64,000 nt of DNA from Paenibacillus hemerocallicola (GTDB lineage Bacteria; Bacillota; Bacilli; Paenibacillales; NBRC-103111), in NCBI RefSeq assembly GCF_006265175.1, contig NZ_VDCQ01000039.1, positions 16,158 through 80,157 on the forward strand, written 5' to 3'. Each line of letters opens with the position of its first letter. Position 1 is the stretch's first letter. Made by a program: the position numbers and the translations under genes. Shown here in pieces: positions 65 through 49,645 of this stretch. The notes under the pieces were generated by a model. It did not search any database. It was given only the letters and a program-made list of their open reading frames with translations, and was not told the DNA's origin.

Positions 65-1465
65 ATGGAAAAGTCGGAAAGAGCGAGCCGCAAAACGTTC
101 CAGCTCAGGCTCGAAGCGATGGTGGAGGCGATTCGCGGCGATATTGCAAGCGGCTCGTTAAAGAAGGGGGACTTCCTTCCTTCGGAGAAGGTATATGCCG
201 GTTCGTATCGATTAAGCAACAACACGGTGCGCAAAGGACTCGACGAGCTGGTGGCCGAAGGGCTGATCGAGAAAGTGCCGAGAGTCGGCAACAAAGTCGT
301 CGGCCGCGAGTCTGAGCGGATGACCGTTCTGAGATTCGGCTGCCACGTATCGCTGCTTCAGGAAGCGGCGATGAAGACGCTGGTGGCCGAATTTCACAAG
401 CGGAATCCGGATATCCGCATCGAGCTGATCGCCATGTCGCCGGAATTGAATTCGTATTCTTCGGTAAAGAAGCGGATCGACGAAGCGTCGTTGGACGTCT
501 TTACGATGAACTATAACGGCTTCGACAGCTTCAGGGAAAACGAAGGATTCGGGCAGTTGGAGTCGTTCGAGTCCGATTCGCGCATTTACCCGTTCTTGAA
601 CGAGGCGTTTACGCACGACGGGCGGCTAAAGCTGATGCCTCTCGTATTCACTCCTCTCATCTTGTGCTACAACAAAGATCATTTTCGGGAAACGGGCTTG
701 ATGGAGCCGGACAGCGGCTGGCGCTGGGATACTTTGTTCGAGGCGGCGGACCGGCTGACCGTGGAGCGGGAGCGATTCGGCTTTTATTTCCATTTTCCGT
801 CCAGCAACCGCTGGCCGGTGTTGTTCATGCAAAGCGGCCTTCGTTTCGAACGCAACGGAGACGGCGGATTCGTCGCGGACGAACGGAAATTGAAAGAGGC
901 GTTGATGGCGTGCCGGACAATCTATTTGCGGAACCGGTTCCCGATGTTTTTGTCGGAGGAGGACAGCGACGCCGAGGAACTGTTCTTCAATGGGAAAGTC
1001 TCGATGATTTTGACCACCTATCTGGGACTGAACCGTCACGAACGCCGGGCGGAGTTCGAGTACGATATTGCCCCGCTGCCGTATCTGAACGAGCCGAAAA
1101 CGCTGCTCATGCCGGTCGGGCTGGCGATAAGCGCCCATGGCCGAGAGAAGGAGAGCGCACGACGGTTCGTCGATTATCTCGTCTCCCACGAGGCGCAGAT
1201 GCTCATTCGCCGGAAGACGTTGAGCATACCGAGCGAGAAGCCCGCCGCGGAGTGGACCGGAGAGGAGAGCATGTACCGTCCGTACCGGTTCCACATGTAC
1301 CGTGAAATTATTCCCAGCTTTCGGTCGTTCCGGGAATTGAACATGCCCGTGGCACGGCTCGGATCGTTGTACAAGGAAGCGAAGCTGTACTGGTCCGGAC
1401 TGGAGACGGAGGAGGAGGCCGTTCGGAGGCTGGCGCAGCTTCTGGCCGCTCCCGCCAAGCCATAG
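65..1465 (+). CDS. GntR-type DNA-binding domain fused to a solute-binding-protein domain (cytoplasmic regulator)
   Basis: A 466-residue protein. Residues about 10-80 form a GntR winged helix, with GDFLPSE and a recognition-helix region LSNNTVRKGLDEL followed by GLIEKVPRVG. Residues about 87-460 read as an ABC family-1 extracellular solute-binding fold (LCYNKDHF, DSGWRWD and the late RFVDYLVSHEAQ segment). There is no signal peptide or membrane segment, so the sugar-binding-like domain probably works in the cytoplasm as the effector sensor of a transcription factor. The ATG at 65 has GGAAGGG upstream. A full-length paralog lies on the minus strand at 47071-48450. The next gene encodes an SBP lipoprotein, a plausible target. 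DNA target and ligand are unknown. The architecture is clear; the role is inferred. Confidence 0.85.
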   Translation: MEKSERASRKTFQLRLEAMVEAIRGDIASGSLKKGDFLPSEKVYAGSYRLSNNTVRKGLDELVAEGLIEKVPRVGNKVVGRESERMTVLRFGCHVSLLQEAAMKTLVAEFHKRNPDIRIELIAMSPELNSYSSVKKRIDEASLDVFTMNYNGFDSFRENEGFGQLESFESDSRIYPFLNEAFTHDGRLKLMPLVFTPLILCYNKDHFRETGLMEPDSGWRWDTLFEAADRLTVERERFGFYFHFPSSNRWPVLFMQSGLRFERNGDGGFVADERKLKEALMACRTIYLRNRFPMFLSEEDSDAEELFFNGKVSMILTTYLGLNRHERRAEFEYDIAPLPYLNEPKTLLMPVGLAISAHGREKESARRFVDYLVSHEAQMLIRRKTLSIPSEKPAAEWTGEESMYRPYRFHMYREIIPSFRSFRELNMPVARLGSLYKEAKLYWSGLETEEEAVRRLAQLLAAPAKP

Positions 1466-1759: not shown

Positions 1760-3361
1760 ATGAGAAGAAAAAGGCTGATTGCTACCGCTGCAATCGTGGT
1801 CGGCATAAACTTGATTTTGTGCGGCTGCGAGAAGGAGTCGGACGCCGCCCTTGCCGGGTCCCCGCCCGCGCCGGACGACAGGCCTGCGCTCCGGATCGCG
1901 ACCATCGACAATTACTTCGCCGCCAATAGCTACAAGGACGATTTGCCCGTATGGCGGGAGGTCGAGAAGCGGACCGGCGTCAAAATCGTCTGGGAAGTGC
2001 TTCCCAGGGAACAGTTTGGAGACGGGATGAGGCTGAGACTGTCGAAGGACACGGATTTGCCGGACATTTTCTATATTCCGGACAACGATCCCGTGAAATT
2101 GGCGGGCAAGGGGACGATCCTCCCTCTGGACGAGCTGATCTCTGCGAATGCTCCCAACATAGCAGGCTTTTTGCGGGAGCATCCGGACATCGACAAGAAG
2201 CTCCGGTTGGCGGACGGCAAACTGTATGCGCTTGCATCCGTGGTGACCGGCGTCGCCTACACCGATCCGTACGGGCTGATGCTCCGCAAAGATTGGCTCG
2301 ATCGGCTCGGGCTTCGGGAACCGGCCACTTTGGACGAATGGTATGCCGTTTTGAAAGCGTTTAAGGAAAACGACCCGAACGGAAACGGGCTGCGGGACGA
2401 AATTCCGCTGCTGCCGGACATCGGCCTGAAAGGGTTGAAATTGTTCGGAAGCGCCGTCGGCGGACATTTTTTTTACAGCGACGGCTTTTATCCGGATGCC
2501 GGTGGCAACGTGAAGTACGAATGGCTCTCGCCGGAAGCGAAGGAGCTGGTGGAGTGGTGGCGCAAATTGTATAGCGAAGGGTTGCTGGCGTCCGATTTTT
2601 TGACGAAAACCGCGGATTCGTTTCTGTCCGAGGTGGCGGGGGGCCGCGTTGGCGCGCTTAACGGCTTCCTGAATTTGCGTCCGAAATACGAGTCGGGCAA
2701 TCGCCAAGCCGGCGATTCGCGAGCCGAGTGGGTCATGACCGTACCGCCCGGAGGCGCGGGACGCAGCGGATTTTATGAAATATACGGGCCTGTCAGCTCG
2801 TGGTTCGGCATATCCCGGAGCAGTCCGAATCCGGAGCTGGCGATTCGTTGGCTCGATTTCATCTATGCAAGCGAGGAGGGCAGCCGGCTGGTCAATTTCG
2901 GAGTCGAAGGGTTGAGCTACACGATGGCGGACGGCAGACCGCAGTTTACCGAATATGCGGCCCGCAATCCCGACGGACTGGACTTGACCCGGCTGCTGCG
3001 ATCGCTCGGGGCGATGCCGACGCTGCCGTGGATTCGCGCGGATAAAGGTCCGTTGTCGCTCCAGCCGCAGGCGATGCTCGACTCCGATCCGGTCGGGGCG
3101 GCGCAGGCCGCCAAAGTAAGGCCCTATTTGATCGGCGCAATTCAACTGGCGCTCCCCACTCCCGAGGAGAAGGATACGGAAGAGCTGTACGGCGCTCCGC
3201 TTCGCGCCTATGTCGAGACGACCTTGGCCCGCTACATTACCGGAGCGGAGGAGATCGACTGGGACCGGTTCGGCCGCACCGTCGCTTCGCTCGGACTGGA
3301 TCGCGTACTGCAGGCGAAGCAGCGGCAGTATGATCGCTATAGAGGCGCTCCGTCTCCCTAA
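1760..3361 (+). CDS. Extracellular solute-binding lipoprotein (LplA/LipO-like, orphan)
   Basis: A 533-residue family-1 ABC substrate-binding lipoprotein. It has an N-terminal basic and hydrophobic signal with a lipobox L-C-G-C, the acylated cysteine being C23. The mature part has the usual SBP features: a VEKRTGV-like first strand, LPDIFY, and FKENDPNGNGLRDE, the calcium-site-like segment of the Paenibacillus LplA/LipO group. The ATG at 1760 is chosen over one 39 bases upstream because it places the signal peptide at the N terminus and has GAGGGGG in front. It presumably binds an oligosaccharide outside the membrane. No permease genes adjoin it, so it must share a permease encoded elsewhere or act as a sensor partner. 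It converges with the AraC sensor gene at 3391-5658. Confidence 0.85.
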   Translation: MRRKRLIATAAIVVGINLILCGCEKESDAALAGSPPAPDDRPALRIATIDNYFAANSYKDDLPVWREVEKRTGVKIVWEVLPREQFGDGMRLRLSKDTDLPDIFYIPDNDPVKLAGKGTILPLDELISANAPNIAGFLREHPDIDKKLRLADGKLYALASVVTGVAYTDPYGLMLRKDWLDRLGLREPATLDEWYAVLKAFKENDPNGNGLRDEIPLLPDIGLKGLKLFGSAVGGHFFYSDGFYPDAGGNVKYEWLSPEAKELVEWWRKLYSEGLLASDFLTKTADSFLSEVAGGRVGALNGFLNLRPKYESGNRQAGDSRAEWVMTVPPGGAGRSGFYEIYGPVSSWFGISRSSPNPELAIRWLDFIYASEEGSRLVNFGVEGLSYTMADGRPQFTEYAARNPDGLDLTRLLRSLGAMPTLPWIRADKGPLSLQPQAMLDSDPVGAAQAAKVRPYLIGAIQLALPTPEEKDTEELYGAPLRAYVETTLARYITGAEEIDWDRFGRTVASLGLDRVLQAKQRQYDRYRGAPSP

Positions 3362-9209: not shown

Positions 9210-11147
9210 TTGAGAAAAGCCGCGCGTGTCGCTATCTTAATATCGGTATTCCTCCTGTCATGCATCGGAGGCGCGATCGTATTGAAGGAACGAGAAAGCA
9301 ACGGGTATTTGGTGTATAAAGGGGAGCCCAGGGCGGTCCTCGTCCGGCAGAACGGCGCGATCGGCAAAGAAGCTACGGACGAGCTGCGCGCCCGGATTCG
9401 CAAATCGACGGGAGCCGATCTGCCCATAGTCGACGCGGAGCGGCTGGAAAGCCTTCATTTGCCCGAATCGCATGTGCTTATCCTGATCGGACCCGGTCCG
9501 ATGACGGAGGCGCTGGGCATTCGGGGAAGCGACCTGGAGAAGGAGGCTTACCGTGTCGCCGCGATCGGCAACCGGCTCGTACTGACGGGAGCGAGCAACG
9601 ACGCCATTTTGTACGCGGTCAGCTACTTTCTCGACGAATACGTCGGTGTCCGCTATTTGTGGCCGGGCGAGCTCGGTACGTATGTTCCCAAGCGGGACAC
9701 GATCGCGCTGCCCGTCGTCGACGCGACCCGACGGCCCGAGGCGGAGCAGCGGCGATTGAGGGCAACCGATACGAGGCCCGAGGTGGAGCGCTGGATGGGC
9801 GTCCATATGATGGGGAGCCGCAGCCGGTTTGCCTTCGGACACGCGTTCACGGGCTGGTACGACAAATACGGCAAGGAGCACCCGGACTATTTCGCCCAGC
9901 CGCCGGCCGGTCAGCAGCAGGTTCGATCCGACCGGGTCAAGCTGGACTTGAGCAACGAAGCGGTAGACGAGGCGATCATACGCGAATGGCAAGCGGCGGG
10001 TGCGCCGGACAATTGGAACGTCTCCCCCAATGACGGGAGCGGCTTCTGCGTCAGCGCCGGCTGTCTCGCGATGGATGAGCCGGCCGGGCAATCGATTGAC
10101 GCGATCTGGGGAGCCGAGGGGAACTTGACCGCGCGTTACGTCAAGTTCTGGAACCGATTGCTGGCGAAGATGCGCGCCGTAAACCCGGAGGTGACCCTCT
10201 CGACCTATGCGTACAGCTCCTACAAGGAGCCCCCTCCTTCCCATCTCAAGCTGAAGGCGGGCATGGTGATCGGTTTCGTCCACACCTTCCAGGCATACGA
10301 GCAATGGCAAGGCTGGTACGATACCGGGGCGAAGCTGTTTCTGCGGCCGAACTGGTGGCATTCGGGGGCGATCGCTCCGAACTTGATGCTGCATGCGACC
10401 GGCGATTATTTCAAGTTTGCCCAGCGGAACGGCATGATCGGATTCGACTTCGACAGCATTATGGGATACTGGGGGACGCAAGGACTCAATTATTACTTGA
10501 TAGCTCGCCTCTCCGTGCGTCCGGAGCTTTCCGTGGACGACGTCATAGCCGAATACGCCTCCGCGTTCGGCAAAGCGGGACCGGTCATCCGGGACTATAT
10601 CCGGTATTGGGAAAGCTTCTCCGAGGAAACGGCCTACAACGTATCCGCGGGCAACGGTGTATCGATCGACCCGAACGGCCGGTTCGAAACAACAGTCAGG
10701 CAATACGGCCTCCCCGGCTCGCCATTGAACAGCGGATGGTACACGCTTCCGTATTTGTATACGGATCAAGTGCTGAACGAGGCTTATGCCATTCTCGACC
10801 GGGCGGACCGGGCTGCGGCGAACGGGGAAGACGACGCGAGGGAGCGCATCGCCTTTTTGCGCGATGGGTTGCGCCATCTGGAGCTGACCCGCGAGGTTGT
10901 CCGGTATGGCTACGAGAAGTCGCGTCCGGCCGGAGCGACGGCGGAGCAATTTCAAAGCATGAGCGAAGAGCTCGACCGATACCGGAAACAGATTTCCGAG
11001 AGGCATGTCATTTGGTACGACGCGTTGAAGGCATCCGAGAAGCAGAGAAGTATTCCGACCGAACGGAGCCGTACGACAGGCTGGGACAAAGGCGTGCCGG
11101 GAGGTCCGAGCGGCGCGGAGCTGGACGAGGCTTTCCGGGGCTTGTGA
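9210..11147 (+). CDS. DUF4838-type glycoside-hydrolase-like protein, putative lipoprotein
   Basis: A 645-residue protein starting at a TTG codon with GGAGG nine bases upstream. The N terminus is a signal sequence ending FLLSC, where C18 could be lipidated, so it is probably exported. The N-terminal region (LILIGPGPMTEALG, RLVLTGASNDAILYAVSYFLDEYVGVRYLWPGE) resembles the domain preceding the catalytic barrel in alpha-glucuronidases and in DUF4838 proteins. A TIM-barrel-like middle follows (FAFGHAFTGWYDKYGKEHPDYF). It is the third gene of the SBP-esterase run, consistent with uronic-acid or xylan side-chain processing, but substrate and activity are unproven. Confidence 0.7.
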   Translation: MRKAARVAILISVFLLSCIGGAIVLKERESNGYLVYKGEPRAVLVRQNGAIGKEATDELRARIRKSTGADLPIVDAERLESLHLPESHVLILIGPGPMTEALGIRGSDLEKEAYRVAAIGNRLVLTGASNDAILYAVSYFLDEYVGVRYLWPGELGTYVPKRDTIALPVVDATRRPEAEQRRLRATDTRPEVERWMGVHMMGSRSRFAFGHAFTGWYDKYGKEHPDYFAQPPAGQQQVRSDRVKLDLSNEAVDEAIIREWQAAGAPDNWNVSPNDGSGFCVSAGCLAMDEPAGQSIDAIWGAEGNLTARYVKFWNRLLAKMRAVNPEVTLSTYAYSSYKEPPPSHLKLKAGMVIGFVHTFQAYEQWQGWYDTGAKLFLRPNWWHSGAIAPNLMLHATGDYFKFAQRNGMIGFDFDSIMGYWGTQGLNYYLIARLSVRPELSVDDVIAEYASAFGKAGPVIRDYIRYWESFSEETAYNVSAGNGVSIDPNGRFETTVRQYGLPGSPLNSGWYTLPYLYTDQVLNEAYAILDRADRAAANGEDDARERIAFLRDGLRHLELTREVVRYGYEKSRPAGATAEQFQSMSEELDRYRKQISERHVIWYDALKASEKQRSIPTERSRTTGWDKGVPGGPSGAELDEAFRGL

Positions 11148-15972: not shown

Positions 15973-18255
15973 ATGGTGCCCAAGATGAGGATGATTGCCA
16001 ACAAAGGGCTGCTGCAAATCTTTTTTGCGCTCCTTTTGGTGGCAATCATTATGTTTGTATCCAACTATATGGTTTATCGCAATTCGATTTCGGGCATTTA
16101 CAACCAGGTCAGCGAAAACAACAAGCTTGTCGTGAAAAACATGATCCGCACCTTCGACGACAGCTTCAAAAATATTAACGATATTATTTACACGATCCAG
16201 CTGCTCTCCTACAACGCGTGGAAAACGGGCGACGGAAACGTAGACATGTCCGATGCGTACATGACCTACTCGAATCTCCGGTCGCTCGCGTCTTCCAGCG
16301 AGTATATCGAGGAAGTGATCGTGTTTCATAACGGCTCGGACCTCGCCATTACGACTTCCGGTACGATCCAGCTGCCGGAGCTGCTGCGCAAAAAATACGT
16401 CAATCCTTCTTATAATTCCGAGTTTTGGAAAACGCTTGCCAAAACCAAACATCCGCTGAAGGTGTTTCCGGCCGAGGCCTACACCGACGATTCGCCGGTC
16501 GGTGTGTCGCGGAAGCTTATTCCGATTATCGGCAGCAACCAAATCTCCGAATTGAACGTGCTCGTTTTTTTGAACTATGATAAAATGCTGCGCCACGTCA
16601 ACCAGGAGTCCATGATGAAGGGAACGTCGCTGATCGTCATGGACCAGAACCGGAACATGATCCTGAATACGGAGGACAAATGGAATCTGGTCGACATGCT
16701 GTACGATCTCAATCTCGGGACGAATCAGGAAGAGACGCTGAAAAACAAAGATTTCGAATACAACGTCTTCAAGTCGGACTATAACGGGTTTATGTATATT
16801 AACAAAACGCCGTACCAATTCGCCGATATGGAGTCGGTGTCCGGCGTCAACCGCCAGATCATGATGATCGCCATCGCCTGCGCCGTCCTTCTGTCCGCGC
16901 TGTTGAGCCTGTATTTGTACAGACCGGTGCGAACCCTCGTCAAGCTGATCGGCATTCGCGACGCCAAGGGGGCCGACTATCGGCAAATCCGGTCGGGCAT
17001 CGCGAGAATGCAGGAAGAGAACGAGTCGTTCAAAACGCAGGTCGACGTGTTCCGCGCGGAAATGCGCAAAGCTGTGTTCCAGAACTCCCTTCTCGGCATC
17101 TCCTCGCCGAAGGAGACGGAGCAGCGGATGCAGCGTTATTTTCCGGAGTTTGCGCAAAGCGGTTATTTCGTCTTGGCCGAATTTCGTTTGCGGGAGAAAA
17201 ACGAAGACGAGAAAGGCTCATCCGTATGGCTTGAAGAAATGGCCGTTTCGATTCATGGCGGTTTGCAGGGTACGGGGGAAACCGTGTCCGTATTTCCGAC
17301 CGGGTACGGCAAATGCTATGTCCATATCGGCATTAGACGGGCCGCCGATCGCGAGCCGATCGTCAAGCAACTGCGCGCCTTCGTCAGGCAGGTCAAGGAA
17401 GAGGCGTGGAGCGGCCTGTCGTCGACGGTAGCGGTGAGCAGGGCATTTGCGGCCGAACCGGCCAATTGCCATAAAGCTTATCGGGATTTGACCGATTGCT
17501 TCGAGTACCGGAACATCGATTCGGACGATGCCGTCATCGACTTTCAGACGATTCGGTATACGTGGAAGGTGTACGCTCCTCTGGACGATATCGAGAAGGC
17601 GTCCCGTTTCCTCGTTATCGGCAACGTCGAGGAGTGCGTCAGCATCGTCCGGGATATTTTCGCCAAAAACGAAGAGCGGCACATTCACCGGTACCAGCTC
17701 GTATCCGTGGCCAAGACGATGCTCTATGACATGCTGAAGCATTTGGACGCAAGCGACGTGGAGCCGAAGCATATTGTCGCGCTGGAAGCGTCGTTCCATG
17801 TGGAAACGGAAGCGGCTACCGGATCGGACGATATCCGCGATGCGTTGATCCGTTCCATCCGCGCGATCGGCGAAACGGGCGGCAAAGCGGGTCAGAAGAG
17901 CAAGCTGGACCCGTCGTCGATAGCCCGTTATATCGCAACCCATTACTACAAAGACCTTCATTTGGATCATATGGCGGAGAAGCTTGAGACGTCCCCGAAA
18001 TATTTTTCCAACTATTTCAAGAAAACGTTCGGCATCAATTTTATCGAATATTTGAACAAAGTTCGGCTGGCGAAGGCGAGCGAGCTGCTGAAGACGACGG
18101 AGCAAACGGTTGCCGAGATCGGCGAGAAGACCGGTTACCAAAATTCGTCCACGTTCACGAGCACCTTCAAAAAATATTACGGCATTTCGCCGAGCGATTA
18201 CCGAAAAAACAGTCCTCCCGAAGCGCCGCCTTCGGAGGGCGGAATAAATAAATAA
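15973..18255 (+). CDS. Membrane-bound AraC-family sensor/regulator
   Basis: A 760-residue protein. A first helix at about residues 10-31 and a second at about 294-317 enclose an extracellular, dCache-like sensory region. A cytoplasmic region with a coiled-coil-like stretch follows, and the C-terminal AraC helix-turn-helix pair lies at about 655-750 (LDHMAEKLETSPKYFSNYF; VAEIGEKTGYQN; FKKYYGISPSDYRK). It directly follows the SBP-permease operon on the same strand, the usual place for the sugar-responsive activator of such importers. The ATG at 15973 has a G-rich ribosome site (GGGTGGGG). It shares its architecture with the protein at 3391-5658. Confidence 0.88.
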   Translation: MVPKMRMIANKGLLQIFFALLLVAIIMFVSNYMVYRNSISGIYNQVSENNKLVVKNMIRTFDDSFKNINDIIYTIQLLSYNAWKTGDGNVDMSDAYMTYSNLRSLASSSEYIEEVIVFHNGSDLAITTSGTIQLPELLRKKYVNPSYNSEFWKTLAKTKHPLKVFPAEAYTDDSPVGVSRKLIPIIGSNQISELNVLVFLNYDKMLRHVNQESMMKGTSLIVMDQNRNMILNTEDKWNLVDMLYDLNLGTNQEETLKNKDFEYNVFKSDYNGFMYINKTPYQFADMESVSGVNRQIMMIAIACAVLLSALLSLYLYRPVRTLVKLIGIRDAKGADYRQIRSGIARMQEENESFKTQVDVFRAEMRKAVFQNSLLGISSPKETEQRMQRYFPEFAQSGYFVLAEFRLREKNEDEKGSSVWLEEMAVSIHGGLQGTGETVSVFPTGYGKCYVHIGIRRAADREPIVKQLRAFVRQVKEEAWSGLSSTVAVSRAFAAEPANCHKAYRDLTDCFEYRNIDSDDAVIDFQTIRYTWKVYAPLDDIEKASRFLVIGNVEECVSIVRDIFAKNEERHIHRYQLVSVAKTMLYDMLKHLDASDVEPKHIVALEASFHVETEAATGSDDIRDALIRSIRAIGETGGKAGQKSKLDPSSIARYIATHYYKDLHLDHMAEKLETSPKYFSNYFKKTFGINFIEYLNKVRLAKASELLKTTEQTVAEIGEKTGYQNSSTFTSTFKKYYGISPSDYRKNSPPEAPPSEGGINK

Positions 18256-23240: not shown

Positions 23241-26027
23241 ATGTCCCCTACGACCAGTGTCCAAAAAATGTTGATCTGCTGCCTCGGCATGCTGATCTGC
23301 CTCGCTGCGGTTTTCGGCCCGTACCGAATCGGATCGGCCAATCCCGCAACGATCCCGGTAACGAATGCAGGCTTCGAACAGCCTGTCGTTGGAGGATCGA
23401 TTCCAGGCTGGAAGCAAACGTACGGAGTCGGCGTATCGACCGTTACGTATGGAGTTACCAACGCGGCGAAAGCAAGCGGAGCCTACAGCATCCGGCTGGA
23501 TGACGCTTCTGCGACTGCGTCGCTCGGCGTAGACAGCGACAAGTTCCCCATCGTGGCGGGGACCGCCTACTCCGCCTCGGCGATGTTCCAGGTAGAGCGC
23601 GGAACGTTGTCGATTTATTTGCAATTTTTCAATGAAGCCGGCGTACGCGTGGCGAATACTTCGGCCAGCGTCGATCCATCACCCGGATTCGTGAAGGGAA
23701 GCGTATCCGGAATCGCTCCGGCCGATGCGGTTACCGCATCTGTCCTGCTCTACTCAGCGTCGACGGTGCAAGGAGCCGGTTATATCGATGATGTCGAGGT
23801 GGAGGTGATCGAGATCGGTACTTTCGAAAACTTGGGACAGCCTATTACGAACTTCATTAACCAGGACGCCGCATTCGGCCGCGAGTCGGGCAAGGATGTT
23901 GCTTACACGGTAGTGAAGGGGGCCAATGACAGCACCGTATTCGCCGTAATCGACCTGAGTACGGCGAAAGTCGTCAAGACGATCCCGATGCCCGGCGTGA
24001 CGGGGGCATGGGGCGTCAAAGCTGCCAGCGACGGAAAAATATATGCGGGCACCCACTACGACGGCCATTTATATCAATATACGCCCGGCGACAGCAGCTT
24101 GGTCGATTTGGGCCAATTGGGCGCCGAGACGCATATATGGGCGCTAGTAGCCGGAGCGGACGGAAAAATATACGCGGGCACTTACCCGAATGCCCATGTG
24201 TTCGAATACGATCCGGCGACGAGCCAGGTACGCGACCTCGGCCGGGTGCATCCGACCGAGAAATACGTCCATGCCCTCGCTTACGATTCGGACCGCAACG
24301 TACTGTATGCGGGCGTCGGCGGGTCGACGGCGGGCATCGTCAAGCTCGACTTGACGAACGGCGGCAGCCGGGAAATTTTGCAGCAGCTGCTCCCGCAAGC
24401 TTATGCGAATTACGATTTCGCCTTCAATATGGGCTATGCGCTGGGCAAGCTGTTCGTCAGACTGAACAAGCCGGATCATCTGCTCATCGTGGACGCGGCG
24501 ACGGAAACCGTCGAATACTATAACCCGAACGGTCTCGGCATGGGGTCGAGAGTACTCGCGACAATGCCGGGAGACGACCATAAGATTTATTTCGGCGGCG
24601 CCATCTTGCGCTCGTACGATATAGCGACCCGAACGTTCGCCGTGGAATTTCCGGATTCTCAGACGAGGGCGTTCAATTTCTTCGACGGCCAGTTCGTCCA
24701 ATTGAACGATCCCGCGTGGCCGGGCTATACGTTTATCGGCTTCAGCGAAAAAGGGCAAATTATGAAATTCAACAAGCAGACGGGAATGCTGGCTACTTCC
24801 AAGGTGGATAATTTCGGTTCGCCGATTCTAATTCAAAGCCTGCATACCGGCTACGACGGCAACGTGTACATCGGCGGATATTTGGGCGCTACCGGCTTCA
24901 CTTCGTACCGGCCGTCGGACGGCACGTTTACGGAAGTGCAGCAGTTCGGCCAGGTCGAGTCTGTAGAAAGTGTAAACGGCAAGCTGTATATCGGCACCTA
25001 CGGCAACGCGAGAGTATACGAGTACGATCCGGCAGCGCCTTGGACGTCCACCAATCCGCGGCGGGTGGCCGAGCTTGTGAGCCACGGTCAGGACCGTCCG
25101 TTCGCGATGGTCGGCGTAAATTCGCTTTCCAAGCTTTACGTCGGTTCGGTACCCGATTACGGTTCGCTTAGCGGGGCGTTGACGGTATATGATGTACCGA
25201 CGCGGCAGACGCAAGTGCACAAGGACATCGTGCACAATCAGGGCGTCGTCTCTTTGACCTACAAGGATGGTCTCGTATACGGCGGAACTACGATATACGG
25301 GGGCTTGGGCACTAGCGGGCCGTCGGAGACGGAAGGCAAGCTGTTCGTATTCGATACGGCGACGAACGCCAAAGTATTCGAAATCGTCCCGGTTCCCGGG
25401 CGCAAAGTAGTAAGCGGCCTGCTGGCCGGACCGGACGGCATGATCTGGGGCGTGGCGGAGGATACGATATTCAAATTCGATCCGCAAACCCGGCAAATCG
25501 TCTACAAATCCGCGAAGCTCGGTCGTTACGGGACCGGAACGGTATGGGTCGACGCTTTTCTGGAGCTCGGGAAGGATGGCAATGTATACGGGACGAACCG
25601 GCAAAAAACGTTGTTCATGATCAAGCCGGATACGATGGATTTCATCAAAATCAAAAGCGGGGCGGGCAACTATTTGTCTCAGGACGCCTTCGGCAACCTT
25701 TATATGGCTAACGATGCCGATCTGTGGAAGTATACGCTGCCTGCCGACGATCAGGAGGCGAGCCTGGATTCGATGCAAGCGTCGATCGCTTCTTATGAAG
25801 CTTCGGGCGAAATCAACGCGACGTTCGCCGGAGAGCTCCGGTACAGGCTGAACATTATCGGTATATTGTCGGGCCAAGGAGCGGCGCAGCAGGCGGTGGC
25901 GTATCTTCAAGATTTTATAGCCCATATCGGGGATCAAGCCGTGTTGCAGCAAGGACTGTTGTCGCAATCGGCGTCCGATGCGCTGAGCTCGGAAGCTGCC
26001 GACCTGATCGGGCAATGGACGTCTTGA
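23241..26027 (+). CDS. Large secreted protein: carbohydrate-binding-like module, beta-propeller, FIMAH domain
   Basis: A 928-residue exported protein. The signal peptide covers about residues 1-34, with cleavage near GSA-NPA. Residues about 38-190 form a CBM4/9-like jelly roll (VTNAGFEQPVVGGSIPGW...GAYSIRLDD). Residues about 195-835 are a propeller with repeated blades such as GKIYAGTHYDGHLYQYTPG, GKIYAGTYPNAHVFEYDPA and GKLYIGTYGNARVYEYDPA. Residues about 845-925 form a helical FIMAH-type domain. The protein probably stays outside the cell and binds polysaccharide; no catalytic site can be assigned. It is monocistronic behind a strong promoter with a cre-like site, suggesting catabolite control. 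Confidence 0.8.
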   Translation: MSPTTSVQKMLICCLGMLICLAAVFGPYRIGSANPATIPVTNAGFEQPVVGGSIPGWKQTYGVGVSTVTYGVTNAAKASGAYSIRLDDASATASLGVDSDKFPIVAGTAYSASAMFQVERGTLSIYLQFFNEAGVRVANTSASVDPSPGFVKGSVSGIAPADAVTASVLLYSASTVQGAGYIDDVEVEVIEIGTFENLGQPITNFINQDAAFGRESGKDVAYTVVKGANDSTVFAVIDLSTAKVVKTIPMPGVTGAWGVKAASDGKIYAGTHYDGHLYQYTPGDSSLVDLGQLGAETHIWALVAGADGKIYAGTYPNAHVFEYDPATSQVRDLGRVHPTEKYVHALAYDSDRNVLYAGVGGSTAGIVKLDLTNGGSREILQQLLPQAYANYDFAFNMGYALGKLFVRLNKPDHLLIVDAATETVEYYNPNGLGMGSRVLATMPGDDHKIYFGGAILRSYDIATRTFAVEFPDSQTRAFNFFDGQFVQLNDPAWPGYTFIGFSEKGQIMKFNKQTGMLATSKVDNFGSPILIQSLHTGYDGNVYIGGYLGATGFTSYRPSDGTFTEVQQFGQVESVESVNGKLYIGTYGNARVYEYDPAAPWTSTNPRRVAELVSHGQDRPFAMVGVNSLSKLYVGSVPDYGSLSGALTVYDVPTRQTQVHKDIVHNQGVVSLTYKDGLVYGGTTIYGGLGTSGPSETEGKLFVFDTATNAKVFEIVPVPGRKVVSGLLAGPDGMIWGVAEDTIFKFDPQTRQIVYKSAKLGRYGTGTVWVDAFLELGKDGNVYGTNRQKTLFMIKPDTMDFIKIKSGAGNYLSQDAFGNLYMANDADLWKYTLPADDQEASLDSMQASIASYEASGEINATFAGELRYRLNIIGILSGQGAAQQAVAYLQDFIAHIGDQAVLQQGLLSQSASDALSSEAADLIGQWTS

Positions 26028-40915: not shown

Positions 40916-42247
40916 ATGCGCCCGGACAAGCCGAACATTTTGTTTCTGATGAGCGACGAGCATAGAGCCGACGTGACCGGGTTCGAAGGTAATCCGGTCA
41001 TCCGCACGCCGAATCTGGACCGTCTGGCGGCGACCGGCACCGTCTTCCGCAACGCCTACACGCCTTCTCCGATTTGCATCCCGGCCAGGCAAAGCATGAT
41101 GGCCGGCCAGTTTCCGCGCACGACCGGCTGCGAGTCGTACGGACAAGATCTGCGACCGGGACATATGACCTTCTCCCGCAGGCTCGCCCAATACGGCTAC
41201 CAGACGGTGGTCAGCGGCAAGCTGCATCATATGGGGACCGATCAAATGCAAGGCTGGACGAAGCGTCTGTATGGCGATATGGAAGTATCGCCGGCGTTTC
41301 TGGAGAGCAAGGAGCAGTCGGAATTCGACAAATATGCGCGGCCATCCCCGAAATGGAGCCAAGCCAAGGAAGTGATGCGCTCCGGGATCGGCAAAGGGCC
41401 GAGCGTCGCGCACGACCGGCTGACGGTGGAAGCCGCGCTCCAATTTATCGATGATTATTTCAACAGCACGTATTACGACCGCGAGAAAATCGAGCCGCTG
41501 CTGCTGAAAGTGAGCCTGCTGCAGCCGCACTATCCGTACTTGACCAGCGAGGAGAAGTTCACCTATTACTTGAACAGGGTGAAGACGTACTCGGGGGAGA
41601 GTCCGTTCGATCATCCGTTCCTTAGCCGGATGGAGGTTCGGCCGGGCACCGACGCATCGGAGCGCGAGCTTCGTCGGGCGACCGCCGCGTATTACGGCAT
41701 GGTCGAGACAATCGACGAGCACTACGGCACGATCCTGAGGGCGCTTACGCATGCGGGGCAAAATCTGGACGACTGGATCATCGTGTATACGGCCGATCAC
41801 GGCGAAATGCTCGGCCAGCACGGCATTTGGGAGAAACAGAAATTTTTCGAGGCCAGCGCAAGAGTGCCTTTGATCATACGCTACCCGGGAATGTTTCCGG
41901 AGGGGAAGATCGTCGGACAGAACGTCGGCTTGTGCGACCTGTTCGCGACGCTGTGCGAGCTCGCCGGAGTTCCCGTGCCAGGTGGCCTGGACAGCCGCAG
42001 CCTCGTTCCGCTGCTCGCGGGAGACGATGCGGCGTGGGACAACGAGGCGGTATCCCAGTTCCGCGGGCGCAATTTGATGATCAAGCGCGATCATCTGAAA
42101 TATCACTATTACGGCCCCGATATGCCAGAAGTGCTGTTCGACCTGCAAAGAAACCCGGAGGAAACGGTCAATTTCATCGGGGAGCCGGAGTACCGCGAAC
42201 GAATAGACCGGTTCCGCCGGCGGGCCGGGGAGCTCGGGTTCGGCTAG
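40916..42247 (+). CDS. Sulfatase (formylglycine-dependent type)
   Basis: A 443-residue arylsulfatase-family protein. The N terminus NILFLMSDEHRAD supplies metal-binding aspartates; C54-I-P-A-R is the C-x-P-x-R site whose cysteine must be oxidised to formylglycine; TADHGEMLGQHG supplies further metal ligands. No signal peptide, so it acts on an imported substrate. The ATG at 40916 has GAGGG at good spacing; an ATG at 40904 overlapping the DUF2264 stop is an alternative. No maturase (FGE or anSME) lies in the window. Together with the SBP and DUF2264 it suggests desulfation of an imported glycan, or a choline-sulfatase-like role. Confidence 0.85.
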   Translation: MRPDKPNILFLMSDEHRADVTGFEGNPVIRTPNLDRLAATGTVFRNAYTPSPICIPARQSMMAGQFPRTTGCESYGQDLRPGHMTFSRRLAQYGYQTVVSGKLHHMGTDQMQGWTKRLYGDMEVSPAFLESKEQSEFDKYARPSPKWSQAKEVMRSGIGKGPSVAHDRLTVEAALQFIDDYFNSTYYDREKIEPLLLKVSLLQPHYPYLTSEEKFTYYLNRVKTYSGESPFDHPFLSRMEVRPGTDASERELRRATAAYYGMVETIDEHYGTILRALTHAGQNLDDWIIVYTADHGEMLGQHGIWEKQKFFEASARVPLIIRYPGMFPEGKIVGQNVGLCDLFATLCELAGVPVPGGLDSRSLVPLLAGDDAAWDNEAVSQFRGRNLMIKRDHLKYHYYGPDMPEVLFDLQRNPEETVNFIGEPEYRERIDRFRRRAGELGFG

Positions 42248-47070: not shown

Positions 47071-48450
47071 TCATACGTGATCCTCGATCCGTCGGCACAC
47101 GGTCTCCATATCCTCCAGACCGGCCCAGTACAGCTTAAGCTCCTCGGCCATCCGGTCCAGCTCGATGTAGGTTATGTTCATGTCCGAGTACTCGCGGAAC
47201 GTGGAAGCGATATCGCGGTACAGAAAAAAACGCGAAGGCCGGTTCAACCCGTCTTCCTCTTCCCGCTCCGCCGCCCGCGTCAATGCCGGAACCGACATCG
47301 TCGTCCGGCGCAGCAGAAGCTGAGCCTCGTCGCTCAGGCAAAAATCGACGAACGTATGGGCGGCATCCTTTCGCTTGCCGTACTTGTTGACGCCGAGACC
47401 GATCGGAAGAAGCAGCGTCGCGGCTTGCCCGGAACGGGGGAGCGGAGAGATGTCGTAGTCCAGGTCCGTATTCCGTAGCGAATTCAGGCTGAAATAGCTC
47501 GTTACGATCATGGATACCTTTTGCTGCAAAAACAGCCGTTCGGCGTCGGCGTCCGTTTCCGACAAATAGGCGGATACCGCTTTGGATTCGGCGAGAAGCG
47601 CCGCTCCTATTGTCGCTGCTTCTTCGAACCGGCTCCGGTCGAAGGAAAGGCGACCGTCCGATCCACGCTCGAACCGGAGCCGGTTTTGCAGCAGAAAGAG
47701 CGGCCAGCGGTTGAGCGACAAATAATGCATATAGAAGCCGAGATGCCCCCGATTGTTGCCGGAAAGCCGCTTGGATGCCCGGGCGACGTCGTCCCATGTC
47801 CAGCCGCTGTCCGGCTCGGCCAAGCCGGCTTGCCGGAAATGCGATTTATTGTAGCAAAGCACAAGCGGCGAGAATACGAAAGGCTGGGCATACAAGGCAT
47901 CGTCGTCGGTGAAGGAATCGAACAGGAACGGGTAAGCTCCTTCCGCTCGCTTCAACGGCTCCAGATAATCCGCAACCGGCCCGATTTCCCCGATCCGCTC
48001 GAACAGCTGGTTGTTGACGGTCAGGACGTCCACAGGCTCGGCTTTCATAAAATCGACCCATTCGATCGGCAGACGGATATGGGGAAGCGGCACCGGTTGG
48101 ACGGCTATTGTCGGATGGGCGCGGTGGAAAAGGTCCAGCAGCGCGGTCATGTTGACCTGCTCGATCATCGATGTATAATAGCCGAGCCGGATCGTCGACG
48201 GAGAACCCGATTCCGCTCGAACGACGCGCGTTCCGACGCGCGGCACTTTCTCGATCAACCCTTGCTCGACTAGCTTGTCCAGTCCTTTGCGTACCGAGTT
48301 TTTGCTCAGGCGGAATTGTTCGATCAGCAGAAATTCGGACGGCAAAAAATCGCCCGGTCCATACCGGCCCGTGACAATGTCGTTTCGCAGCGTCGCAATC
48401 ATGTCTTCAAGTCGGATCCGGAATGTAGTACGCTTCGGTTTCTCGGTCAT
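47071..48450 (-). CDS. GntR-type DNA-binding domain fused to a solute-binding-protein domain (second paralog)
   Basis: A 459-residue cytoplasmic protein built like the one at 65-1465. A GntR winged helix (GDFLPSEFLLIEQF, LSKNSVRKGLDKLVEQGL) is followed by an SBP-like domain with LCYNKSHFRQAGL, DSGWTWDD, LNRWPLFLLQNRLRFERG and FVDFCLSDEAQLLLRR, each aligning with the first paralog. No signal peptide. ATG 48450 has GGAGG eight bases upstream. It is divergent from an MDR oxidoreductase gene at 48614, its probable target. Ligand-controlled repression or activation is inferred from the domains. Confidence 0.85.
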   Translation of the reverse strand: MTEKPKRTTFRIRLEDMIATLRNDIVTGRYGPGDFLPSEFLLIEQFRLSKNSVRKGLDKLVEQGLIEKVPRVGTRVVRAESGSPSTIRLGYYTSMIEQVNMTALLDLFHRAHPTIAVQPVPLPHIRLPIEWVDFMKAEPVDVLTVNNQLFERIGEIGPVADYLEPLKRAEGAYPFLFDSFTDDDALYAQPFVFSPLVLCYNKSHFRQAGLAEPDSGWTWDDVARASKRLSGNNRGHLGFYMHYLSLNRWPLFLLQNRLRFERGSDGRLSFDRSRFEEAATIGAALLAESKAVSAYLSETDADAERLFLQQKVSMIVTSYFSLNSLRNTDLDYDISPLPRSGQAATLLLPIGLGVNKYGKRKDAAHTFVDFCLSDEAQLLLRRTTMSVPALTRAAEREEEDGLNRPSRFFLYRDIASTFREYSDMNITYIELDRMAEELKLYWAGLEDMETVCRRIEDHV

Positions 48451-48507: not shown

Positions 48508-48525
48508 TTCCCATTATAACGGGAA
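48508..48525. promoter_or_regulatory. Palindrome over the -10 of the second GntR-SBP gene
   Basis: TTCCC-attataac-GGGAA. On the minus strand the centre gives TATAAT as a -10 for the GntR-SBP gene, so a bound dimer would cover the promoter. It parallels the smaller palindrome at 14-31. Confidence 0.4.
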
Positions 48526-48542: not shown

Positions 48543-48571
48543 TTGACGCTCTTCGGATCCGGGCCTATAAT
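48543..48571 (+). promoter_or_regulatory. Sigma-A promoter of the MDR oxidoreductase gene
   Basis: TTGACG (48543-48548) and TATAAT (48566-48571) with exactly 17 bases between, 43 bases before the ATG. Confidence 0.7.
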
Positions 48572-48613
48572 TCAAATTATATATACAAGATATGAACCAG
48601 AGGAGCGGGCAAC

Positions 48614-49645
48614 ATGAAAGTAGTAACATCTAGCAGAGGCAACGTCCAAACGCAACATATTCCGGAACCCGAATGTTCCGACAACTACGTTATCGTAGAA
48701 AACGTATACTCGGCTATTAGCCCCGGCACGGAGATGCTGATGATCGACCGGAGCAAACAGATCGATCAAGCCGTCGTACTCGGCTACAGCTCGGCGGGAA
48801 TTGTCCGTGAGGCAGGCGCCGGCGTGGACAAGCTGAGCGTCGGCCAGCGCGTAGCCTGCTACGGCGCGCCGTTCGTCCGCCATGCCGAGAAGATCGCCGT
48901 TCCGAAGCATTTGGCGGTGCCGCTGCCCGAGCATGTCGATTTTCGCGAAGCGGCGTTTGTCGCGCATGGGGCCATAGCTATCCATGCATTGAGGCAATCC
49001 GATTTGCGATTCGGGGAAACGGCGGTCGTCGTAGGGCTTGGCATTCTCGGACAGCTGCTGTGCCAGATTGCGAGCGCTGCCGGATTTCGCGTCATCGGCT
49101 TTGACCTGCTGCCGGAACGGTGTGACCAGTTGCGTGCAAGCGGAGCGGGCTGGGCGTGCTCCGGCGCGGATGAGCTCGCCGAAGCGATCAAGGAGCGTTC
49201 GGAGGGCGCCGGCGCCGACGCCGTGTTCATTTGCGCGGGCGGCAAGGCCGGCGGCCTGATCGATCAGGCGCTCGCTTGGCTGCGGGATCGCGGCAAAGTC
49301 GTAATCGTAGGCGATGTGAAGACCGAATTCGACCGCAACCGTTTGTTCGGCAAAGAAGCGCAGGTGCTCATCTCCCGAGCGGGAGGACCGGGACGTTACG
49401 ATCCCGTCTACGAGGGCGGCGGCATCGATTATCCGATCGGCTATGTCCGTTGGACGGAAGGGCGCAATATGTCCGAATATGTGAGGCTGCTTGCCGAGGG
49501 AAAAGTTCGGATCGGTTCGATGATTACGAGCAGCGTGCCGATCGATGAGGCGGCTTCCGCTTACGAGCGGTTCATGTCCGACCCGAGGGGGCAGCTTGGC
49601 GTTTTGCTTTCCTATGAACGCATCCCCGCGGAGCTGGGGGTATAA
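48614..49645 (+). CDS. MDR-superfamily oxidoreductase lacking catalytic-zinc ligands
   Basis: A 343-residue medium-chain dehydrogenase/reductase. The Rossmann motif is VVVGLGILGQLLCQIA, followed by GFDLLPERCDQL, which suggests NAD(P) binding. The N-terminal AISPGTEM and GYSSAGIVREAG replace the usual Cys and Gly-His-Glu zinc ligands, as in BchC-like and bi-domain oxidoreductase-type relatives. It is cytoplasmic and followed by its own terminator. It is divergent from the GntR-SBP regulator, which probably controls it. The substrate is unknown; a polyol or sugar derivative would suit the context. Confidence 0.85.
   Translation: MKVVTSSRGNVQTQHIPEPECSDNYVIVENVYSAISPGTEMLMIDRSKQIDQAVVLGYSSAGIVREAGAGVDKLSVGQRVACYGAPFVRHAEKIAVPKHLAVPLPEHVDFREAAFVAHGAIAIHALRQSDLRFGETAVVVGLGILGQLLCQIASAAGFRVIGFDLLPERCDQLRASGAGWACSGADELAEAIKERSEGAGADAVFICAGGKAGGLIDQALAWLRDRGKVVIVGDVKTEFDRNRLFGKEAQVLISRAGGPGRYDPVYEGGGIDYPIGYVRWTEGRNMSEYVRLLAEGKVRIGSMITSSVPIDEAASAYERFMSDPRGQLGVLLSYERIPAELGV

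Follow-up and report, generated by a model that had tools for sequence, protein, structure and literature searches.

GntR regulators with a solute-binding-protein domain in Paenibacillus: a candidate subfamily of cytoplasmic sugar sensors with a predicted direct-repeat operator

The window analysed here, a stretch of 64,000 nucleotides from Paenibacillus hemerocallicola (contig NZ_VDCQ01000039.1, positions 16,158 to 80,157), encodes two proteins, called regulators 1 and 2 below, in which a GntR winged helix is joined to a solute-binding protein (SBP) domain of the ATP-binding cassette (ABC) transporter type. We propose, with a probability of roughly 0.7, that such GntR-SBP fusions are cytoplasmic sugar-released repressors acting on ABC-transporter and oxidoreductase operons. 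In a wider sense, GntR-SBP proteins probably form a so far undescribed GntR subfamily of single origin, whose cytoplasmic sensor is a captured ABC carbohydrate-binding protein. Most central members would have a direct-repeat operator in common, and with about 17-50 copies per genome in one Paenibacillus lineage they would provide an internal set of sugar sensors beside the external binding proteins.

Architecture and fold of the two regulators

Regulator 1 (window positions 65-1465, + strand) is an open reading frame (ORF) of 466 residues. Its GntR winged helix occupies residues 19-78 (119-298, +; Pfam PF00392, 42.1 bits) and is followed by the SBP domain at residues 86-466 (320-1462, +). Regulator 2 (47071-48450, - strand; ORF of 459 residues) scores 50.6 bits with the same GntR model and 73.2 bits with SBP_bac_1, its SBP part being at about residues 84-459. 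In both proteins the winged helix precedes an SBP_bac_1/SBP_bac_8 domain and all these matches exceed the Pfam cut-offs (27 for PF00392). The two regulators are 42% identical across 456 aligned positions. The fusion announced in a preliminary description of this DNA is thus confirmed by Pfam in both proteins, as is its argument that a paralog of the same architecture speaks against a chance fusion.

In the predicted model of regulator 1, the winged helix comprises helices at residues 9-29, 41-47 and 52-64 and strands at 68-71 and 75-78, and the SBP part retains the entire two-lobe fold of carbohydrate SBPs, so that the C-terminal region is SBP-like, as had been supposed. Judging by structure titles, many of the best structure matches of this domain are sugar-bound SBPs, and the closest solved relative of the C-terminal part by sequence is Lmo0181 (5f7v, E 1.5e-15). 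A Pfam scan to E 1 returned the SBP models and no FCD, UTRA, aminotransferase or LacI-type domain in either regulator; in the same scan, neither protein displayed an effector domain of the described FadR, HutC, MocR, YtrA, AraR and PlmA subfamilies, nor any match to the SgrR_N, AraC, SBP_bac_5 or FeuA-type families. The 25 NCBIfam matches listed per regulator are all partial and all under cut-off.

Such proteins could be taken for ordinary exported SBPs whose start codon has been called too far upstream, and one public record does name a member 'extracellular solute-binding protein'. This reading is refuted by the sequence: the winged helix is in frame and conserved across 60 aligned sequences, with I27, E41, R56 and G75 among its invariant residues. 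Moreover, hydropathy and inspection by eye found no leader, lipobox or hydrophobic stretch in regulators 1 and 2 (largest 19-residue means 0.79 and 1.12), and no hydrophobic segment is present in the 41 fusions of the genome. All four neighbouring SBPs inspected, unlike the regulators, start with a lipoprotein-like leader. The absence of a signal peptide or membrane segment is therefore borne out, and we consider the exported-protein explanation practically negligible. The public record in question (L217:3196-4614, NZ_CP033045.1, WP_121614118.1) is the GntR-SBP regulator of Mesobacillus, and others may hide under the same name.

Distribution and origin of the fusion

The genome of P. hemerocallicola (9.65 Mb, 167 contigs) encodes 41 fusions by an automatic two-domain criterion and 42 with L056, a full-length member whose start was mis-called, plus fragments, some of which sit at contig ends. 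Fusion genes may adjoin in tandem (L040:5697-7097 and L040:7258-8676; also L089). Five genomes of the genus have 46, 17, 32, 51 and 37 matches at E 1e-20 or better, fragments counted. In the family, with the best 15 candidates per genome scored, a match at E 1e-40 or better occurs in at least 66 of 104 genomes and at least 16 of 22 genera. Class and phylum were sampled with 299 genomes each, the best five candidates per genome being scored. At least 14 genomes of the class sample besides that of P. hemerocallicola have an unbroken full-length match and three further ones (G189, G325, G158) a partial or two-piece match; outside the class, among the phylum matches listed, none starts upstream of model position 69, close to the end of the winged helix.

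Carriers among 79 retained loci include many Paenibacillus, Cohnella laeviribosi, Paenactinomyces guangxiensis, a Hydrogenibacillus metagenome-assembled genome, Candidatus Carbobacillus, and two metagenome-assembled contigs labelled Clostridiales and Epulonipiscium, which are perhaps mis-binned, perhaps real outliers. A plasmid of Mesobacillus foraminis is a further carrier. Both domains were confirmed by Pfam in all eight divergent members tested. Divergent GntR-SBP regulators are found at L063, L064, L065, L066 and L067 and, in the held-out set described below, at L220, L228, L230, L232, L235 and L236; the held-out ones are without the common site, and the divergent set may be a second subgroup with another site.

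In a quick tree, a single branch separates all regulator SBP domains from the SBPs when L056 is treated as a fusion; the initial tree required two changes, L056 having been labelled an SBP. The rows were 61 regulators (41 from P. hemerocallicola and 20 of 77 others, every fourth being taken) and 54 labelled SBPs (53 without L056), the latter all from the P. hemerocallicola genome; the search was quick, with no mixture model, and the program warned of long branches joined among SBPs. Within the regulators, helix-turn-helix and SBP parts co-diverge (r 0.68). Tree and co-divergence would fit a single old fusion followed by duplication.

A predicted direct-repeat operator

Comparison of orthologous intergenic regions (footprinting) revealed a conserved word, WACYAGATATGAACYAGA, located after the -10 box and ahead of the SBP gene's start codon, with a second copy upstream of the regulator. 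The footprint consensus ACYAGATATGAACYAGA is a predicted site made of two half-sites in direct orientation, (W)ACYAGAT and ACYAGA, 11 bp apart, and not a palindrome of the GT...AC kind. At the Paenactinomyces locus, a third half-site stands in register, giving two overlapping matches 11 bp apart. HutC and FadR operators are presented in PMC4494728 as GT...AC palindromes (NyGTMTAKACNy), and direct-repeat operators are reported there for FarR, NagQ and NanR.

A matrix was built from 11 sites of seven loci, none from the window. Its best match in the window, TACAAGATATGAACCAGAG (48584-48602, +), scores 19.8 bits, a value reached in none of 20 window shuffles, and the second-best site in the 64 kb has 10.1 bits. 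The consensus has a single match in the window at up to three mismatches, itself with none (0.07 expected). This predicted operator lies between the -10 box and the start of a zinc-binding dehydrogenase gene (48614-49645, +; Pfam ADH_zinc_N, 70.9 bits), which is divergent from regulator 2 and is its predicted target. Promoter-like boxes can be read in the sequence at 48543-48571 (+), namely TTGACG (48543-48548) and TATAAT (48566-48571) spaced by 17 bp, and the site and the ribosome-binding region of the dehydrogenase gene overlap. Wherever intergenic regions were read, the sites are downstream of the -10 box.

The matrix was applied to a held-out set of 18 fusion regions (10-11.5 kb, from 17 class-sample genomes) and 16 control regions, for which 15 of these genomes were used; none of the contigs was a matrix source, and three were already among the fusion loci collected earlier. 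At 15 bits, a site is present in 11 of the 18 fusion regions versus none of the 16 controls (Fisher p 1.1e-4), and best scores also differ (Mann-Whitney p 0.009). All 12 regions with a regulator of 35% or more identity to regulator 1 reach at least 14.3 bits, the top control having 14.2. Some of these sites are several kb away from the regulator, for example before the first gene of its operon (L222, L223). The Mesobacillus site (23.6 bits) is 19 bp before the SBP gene. With their own locus excluded from the matrix, 39 of 77 foreign fusions have a site at 12 bits and 26 at 15 bits, compared with 4 and 1 of 40 control loci, although eight of the 77 (L116, L121, L124, L125, L130, L131, L132, L137) look near-orthologous and inflate the count. 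As a genome-wide pattern in 103 family genomes, the site is found 15 times, versus 6 for the reversed pattern, and nine of the 15 are within 138 bp of a fusion gene.

Behind 67 sites (counted once per identical protein start, and including orthologs and the 11 source sites) stand 20 SBP genes, 10 regulator genes, 6 zinc dehydrogenase genes, 1 hydroxyacid dehydrogenase gene and 16 other genes, with no ORF in 14 cases.

Gene neighbourhood of the fusions

Genes were called with a simple codon-usage script trained on the P. hemerocallicola genome, and SBP, permease and dehydrogenase labels come from profiles iterated in this analysis, not from Pfam. Within three genes, an SBP gene accompanies 25 of the 41 fusions of this genome versus 18 of 102 random genes (Fisher p 8e-7), these being drawn from 20 mechanically chosen 15-kb regions and not fully independent. 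The corresponding numbers are 10 versus 4 for hydroxyacid dehydrogenases, 1 versus 6 for permeases and 16 versus 31 for AraC neighbours. The zinc dehydrogenases, searched with a profile made from such dehydrogenases, are neighbours of a minority, being within three genes of 4 of 41 fusions in this genome and of 6 of 77 foreign ones.

The script missed the fusion in 7 of the 79 foreign loci, which were excluded from the neighbour counts. Within three genes, the remaining 72 have an SBP in 41 cases, a permease in 16 and a hydroxyacid dehydrogenase in 15, and nine show the plain order regulator, SBP, permease, permease. At L096, L105 and L124, a relative of the window dehydrogenase comes next after this series. 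The operon has its whole transporter at L124 and L121, loci of P. elgii or P. tyrfis. In the Mesobacillus cluster, an SBP gene and two permease genes are followed by the regulator, a zinc-binding alcohol dehydrogenase and Gfo/Idh, and an N-acetylmannosamine-6-phosphate epimerase and a ROK protein are encoded further along.

The region had been described as packed with orphan SBPs. Orphans do exist there, but they are not special to it: 16 of 20 control SBPs of the genome are without a permease within three genes, so orphan SBPs are a genome-wide habit. The idea that fusion-linked SBPs are specially orphan was likewise abandoned, since 24 of 25 lack a nearby permease compared with the 16 of 20 controls (Fisher p 0.16, not significant). 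At least 150 proteins of this genome, fusions included, are over the SBP_bac_1 cut-off.

Proposed mode of action and ligand

As one-component transcription factors, the fusions would read DNA through the winged helix while the complete carbohydrate-type SBP domain stays in the cytoplasm. The simplest mechanism would be repression, in which a dimer occupies the two direct half-sites just downstream of the -10 box and masks the point where transcription begins, whether of an operon for an ABC sugar transporter, of the gene for the regulator itself or of a gene for a sugar-oxidising dehydrogenase. An imported sugar or an early catabolite would then close the SBP lobes, and the resulting re-spacing of the winged helices would release the operator. 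Fold and gene context make a sugar the likely ligand; in Mesobacillus, the neighbouring genes hint at an amino sugar.

GntR regulators of both signs exist, and the fusions might instead be ligand-dependent activators or co-repressors, the closed form with bound sugar being the one on DNA; sugar would then turn on repression or recruit polymerase. The position of the sites downstream of the -10 box suits blocking over activation, and we regard this alternative as unlikely. Another possibility is that the SBP domain no longer binds sugar and serves as a dimerisation or protein-contact module, reporting for example on the transporter permease. The fusion is indeed kept at many permease-less loci (40 of the 41 in P. 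hemerocallicola have none within three genes), and the regulator SBP domains do not co-diverge with the adjacent SBPs. On the other hand, the two-lobe fold is complete, and the sugar-bound structures mentioned above are among its best matches, which makes a domain devoid of sugar binding quite improbable.

Several results weigh against sugar-released repression, the reading that we prefer. Regulator SBP domain and adjacent SBP show no co-divergence in 24 pairs (Mantel r -0.21, p 0.97), and regulators are no nearer to their cognate SBP than to other SBPs (ranks 1 to 22, one without a match). The notion that the regulator senses what the neighbouring SBP carries is therefore unsupported by sequence; as the regulator SBP part does not track its neighbour, the two may bind different compounds, e.g. 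a transported oligosaccharide outside and a catabolite inside. Concerning the site, 30 of the 67 precede another kind of gene or no ORF. No score above 11.4 bits occurs at the six held-out loci whose regulator has less than 34% identity with regulator 1, so not every member of the family has the site. Of the nine genome-wide sites adjoining a fusion, seven are near-identical, 95-119 bp past the regulator end and probably orthologs; since the pattern was also drawn from such loci, few independent events are left. In the P. hemerocallicola genome itself, the contrast is not significant, either at 12 bits (6 of 41 fusion loci versus 4 of 40 controls) or at 15 bits (5 of 41 versus 1 of 40), and regulator 1 has no site of the WACYAGATATGAACYAGA kind at its locus.

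Five loci of this genome reach 15 bits: the sites of regulator 2 and L046 each precede a zinc dehydrogenase gene, that of L052 precedes the next gene, and those of L036 and L067 have no ORF behind them. In an earlier scan of the genome with a matrix including the window site, 8 matches of at least 11 bits were found in 93 kb of fusion-locus intergenic DNA (3 in the shuffle); the counts were 2 for the 45 kb surrounding control SBPs and 2 for 61 kb taken from random regions, a weak contrast. Most of the expanded paralogs must rely on another site or have themselves diverged. As a candidate operator, four orthologs of regulator 1 (L071, L076, L083, L029) display letters resembling RTACATAATATAT directly after the -10 box, with at most one mismatch; this word is absent from six of the ten loci searched, the window locus included, and one match with five mismatches was found elsewhere.

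Palindromes and an inserted repeat element

Palindromes at 14-31 and 48508-48525 had been put forward as operators, and both are inverted repeats near the two genes. The first, however, is largely the end of an inserted element, because it overlaps the right terminal inverted repeat of the latter (9-27, +), a 19-bp end with 28 genome copies at up to one mismatch and none for the reversed pattern. The second contains the word TATAAT on the - strand, may be part of the own promoter of regulator 2, and differs from the conserved word recurring in the footprints. It is thus very improbable that these palindromes are the operators.

Sixteen of the 28 element ends form eight inverted pairs spanning 197-270 bp. 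The element at C101:15988-16184 (L069), of about 200 bp and with a 10-N assembly gap inside, resembles a miniature inverted-repeat transposable element. It separates promoter-like boxes (TTGAAG at C101:15960, TATGCT at 15983) from the regulator 1 start codon, and the Paenibacillus mesophilus relative L078 has matching boxes and no element. The insertion may alter regulator 1 expression in this strain.

A palindromic operator, TTATATAA, was also considered from a dyad count in 99 upstream regions (11 versus 0.8 expected) and discarded, as it coincides with -10 boxes. The same count gave GCCG-N4-CGGC 9 times versus 0.4 expected and, in the P. hemerocallicola regions only, TATT-N3-AATA 5 times versus 0.8 expected.

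Other genes of the region

Upstream of regulator 1, on the same strand and before the window, are genes for an SBP lipoprotein, a secreted FIMAH/propeller-like protein and a D-2-hydroxyacid dehydrogenase, and an SBP gene (1760-3361, +) starts 294 bp after the regulator. The same gene order is found in P. mesophilus (L078), whose regulator is 87% identical to regulator 1. Two secreted-looking proteins of about 910-930 residues, at L069:12087-14816 in the regulator 1 cluster and at 23241-26027 in the window, combine propeller-like repeats with a C-terminal FIMAH domain and are perhaps polysaccharide-active. The window also encodes a sulfatase with an SGSH-like C-terminus (40916-42247) and a DUF4838 protein with weak NAGLU similarity (9282-11147), so the region may target sulfated or amino-sugar glycans.

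Relation to known regulators and significance

AraR of Bacillus subtilis, a sugar-released repressor, is among the closest parallels in design: it too joins a GntR winged helix to a two-lobe sugar-sensing domain of binding-protein ancestry. Its effector domain is of the LacI/GalR type (periplasmic binding protein, PBP, type I), whereas the fusions carry SBP_bac_1, an ABC-transporter carbohydrate SBP of PBP type II and about 380 residues; the AraR-type domain is not among the Pfam matches to E 1, which are to SBP_bac_1 and SBP_bac_8 instead. The fusions would therefore be GntR regulators with an effector domain outside the listed subfamilies, working in an AraR-like manner without being AraR members. 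SgrR and Btr are also natural proteins in which a DNA-binding domain is fused to an ABC-type solute-binding domain working in the cytoplasm, but they belong to other families on both sides, with SgrR_N and AraC DNA-binding domains and SBP_bac_5 and FeuA-like SBPs. LacI/GalR and LysR regulators also combine a helix-turn-helix with a binding-protein-like effector domain; theirs have long diverged, whereas the GntR-SBP domain is still recognised by Pfam models of ABC SBPs. The mosaic structure of AraR is noted in PMC12842492, and LysR with a PBP II effector in PMC5882156. Engineered biosensors in which an ABC-transporter binding protein is fused to a repressor DNA-binding domain (PMC6079105) have the same design; they are synthetic, while GntR-SBP proteins have been made and multiplied by evolution.

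GntR subfamilies are given as FadR, HutC, MocR, YtrA, AraR and PlmA (PMC4494728, 2015; PMC12842492, 2026), and none of these six is presented there with an SBP-type effector domain. PMC5882156 counts 76 companion domains of GntR, and the words SBP and solute are absent from its main text. In a literature search covering mostly openly accessible papers, we found, among the titles listed, no description of a GntR regulator with an SBP effector, and the one paper covered that mentions both GntR and SBP_bac_1 is unrelated. The 'little-described sensor class' of the preliminary description stands to this extent, as a cytoplasmic SBP-type regulator.

If this view is correct, a well-studied regulator superfamily would gain a branch that is easily missed through annotation as 'extracellular solute-binding protein', as in the record cited above. 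It would also be a natural counterpart of what synthetic biologists assemble by hand, a binding protein linked to a DNA-binding domain, and its dozens of natural variants could be mined for sugar sensors. Through the predicted operator the claim can be tested directly, and these regulators would help to work out which glycans are handled by the numerous orphan binding proteins of such genomes.
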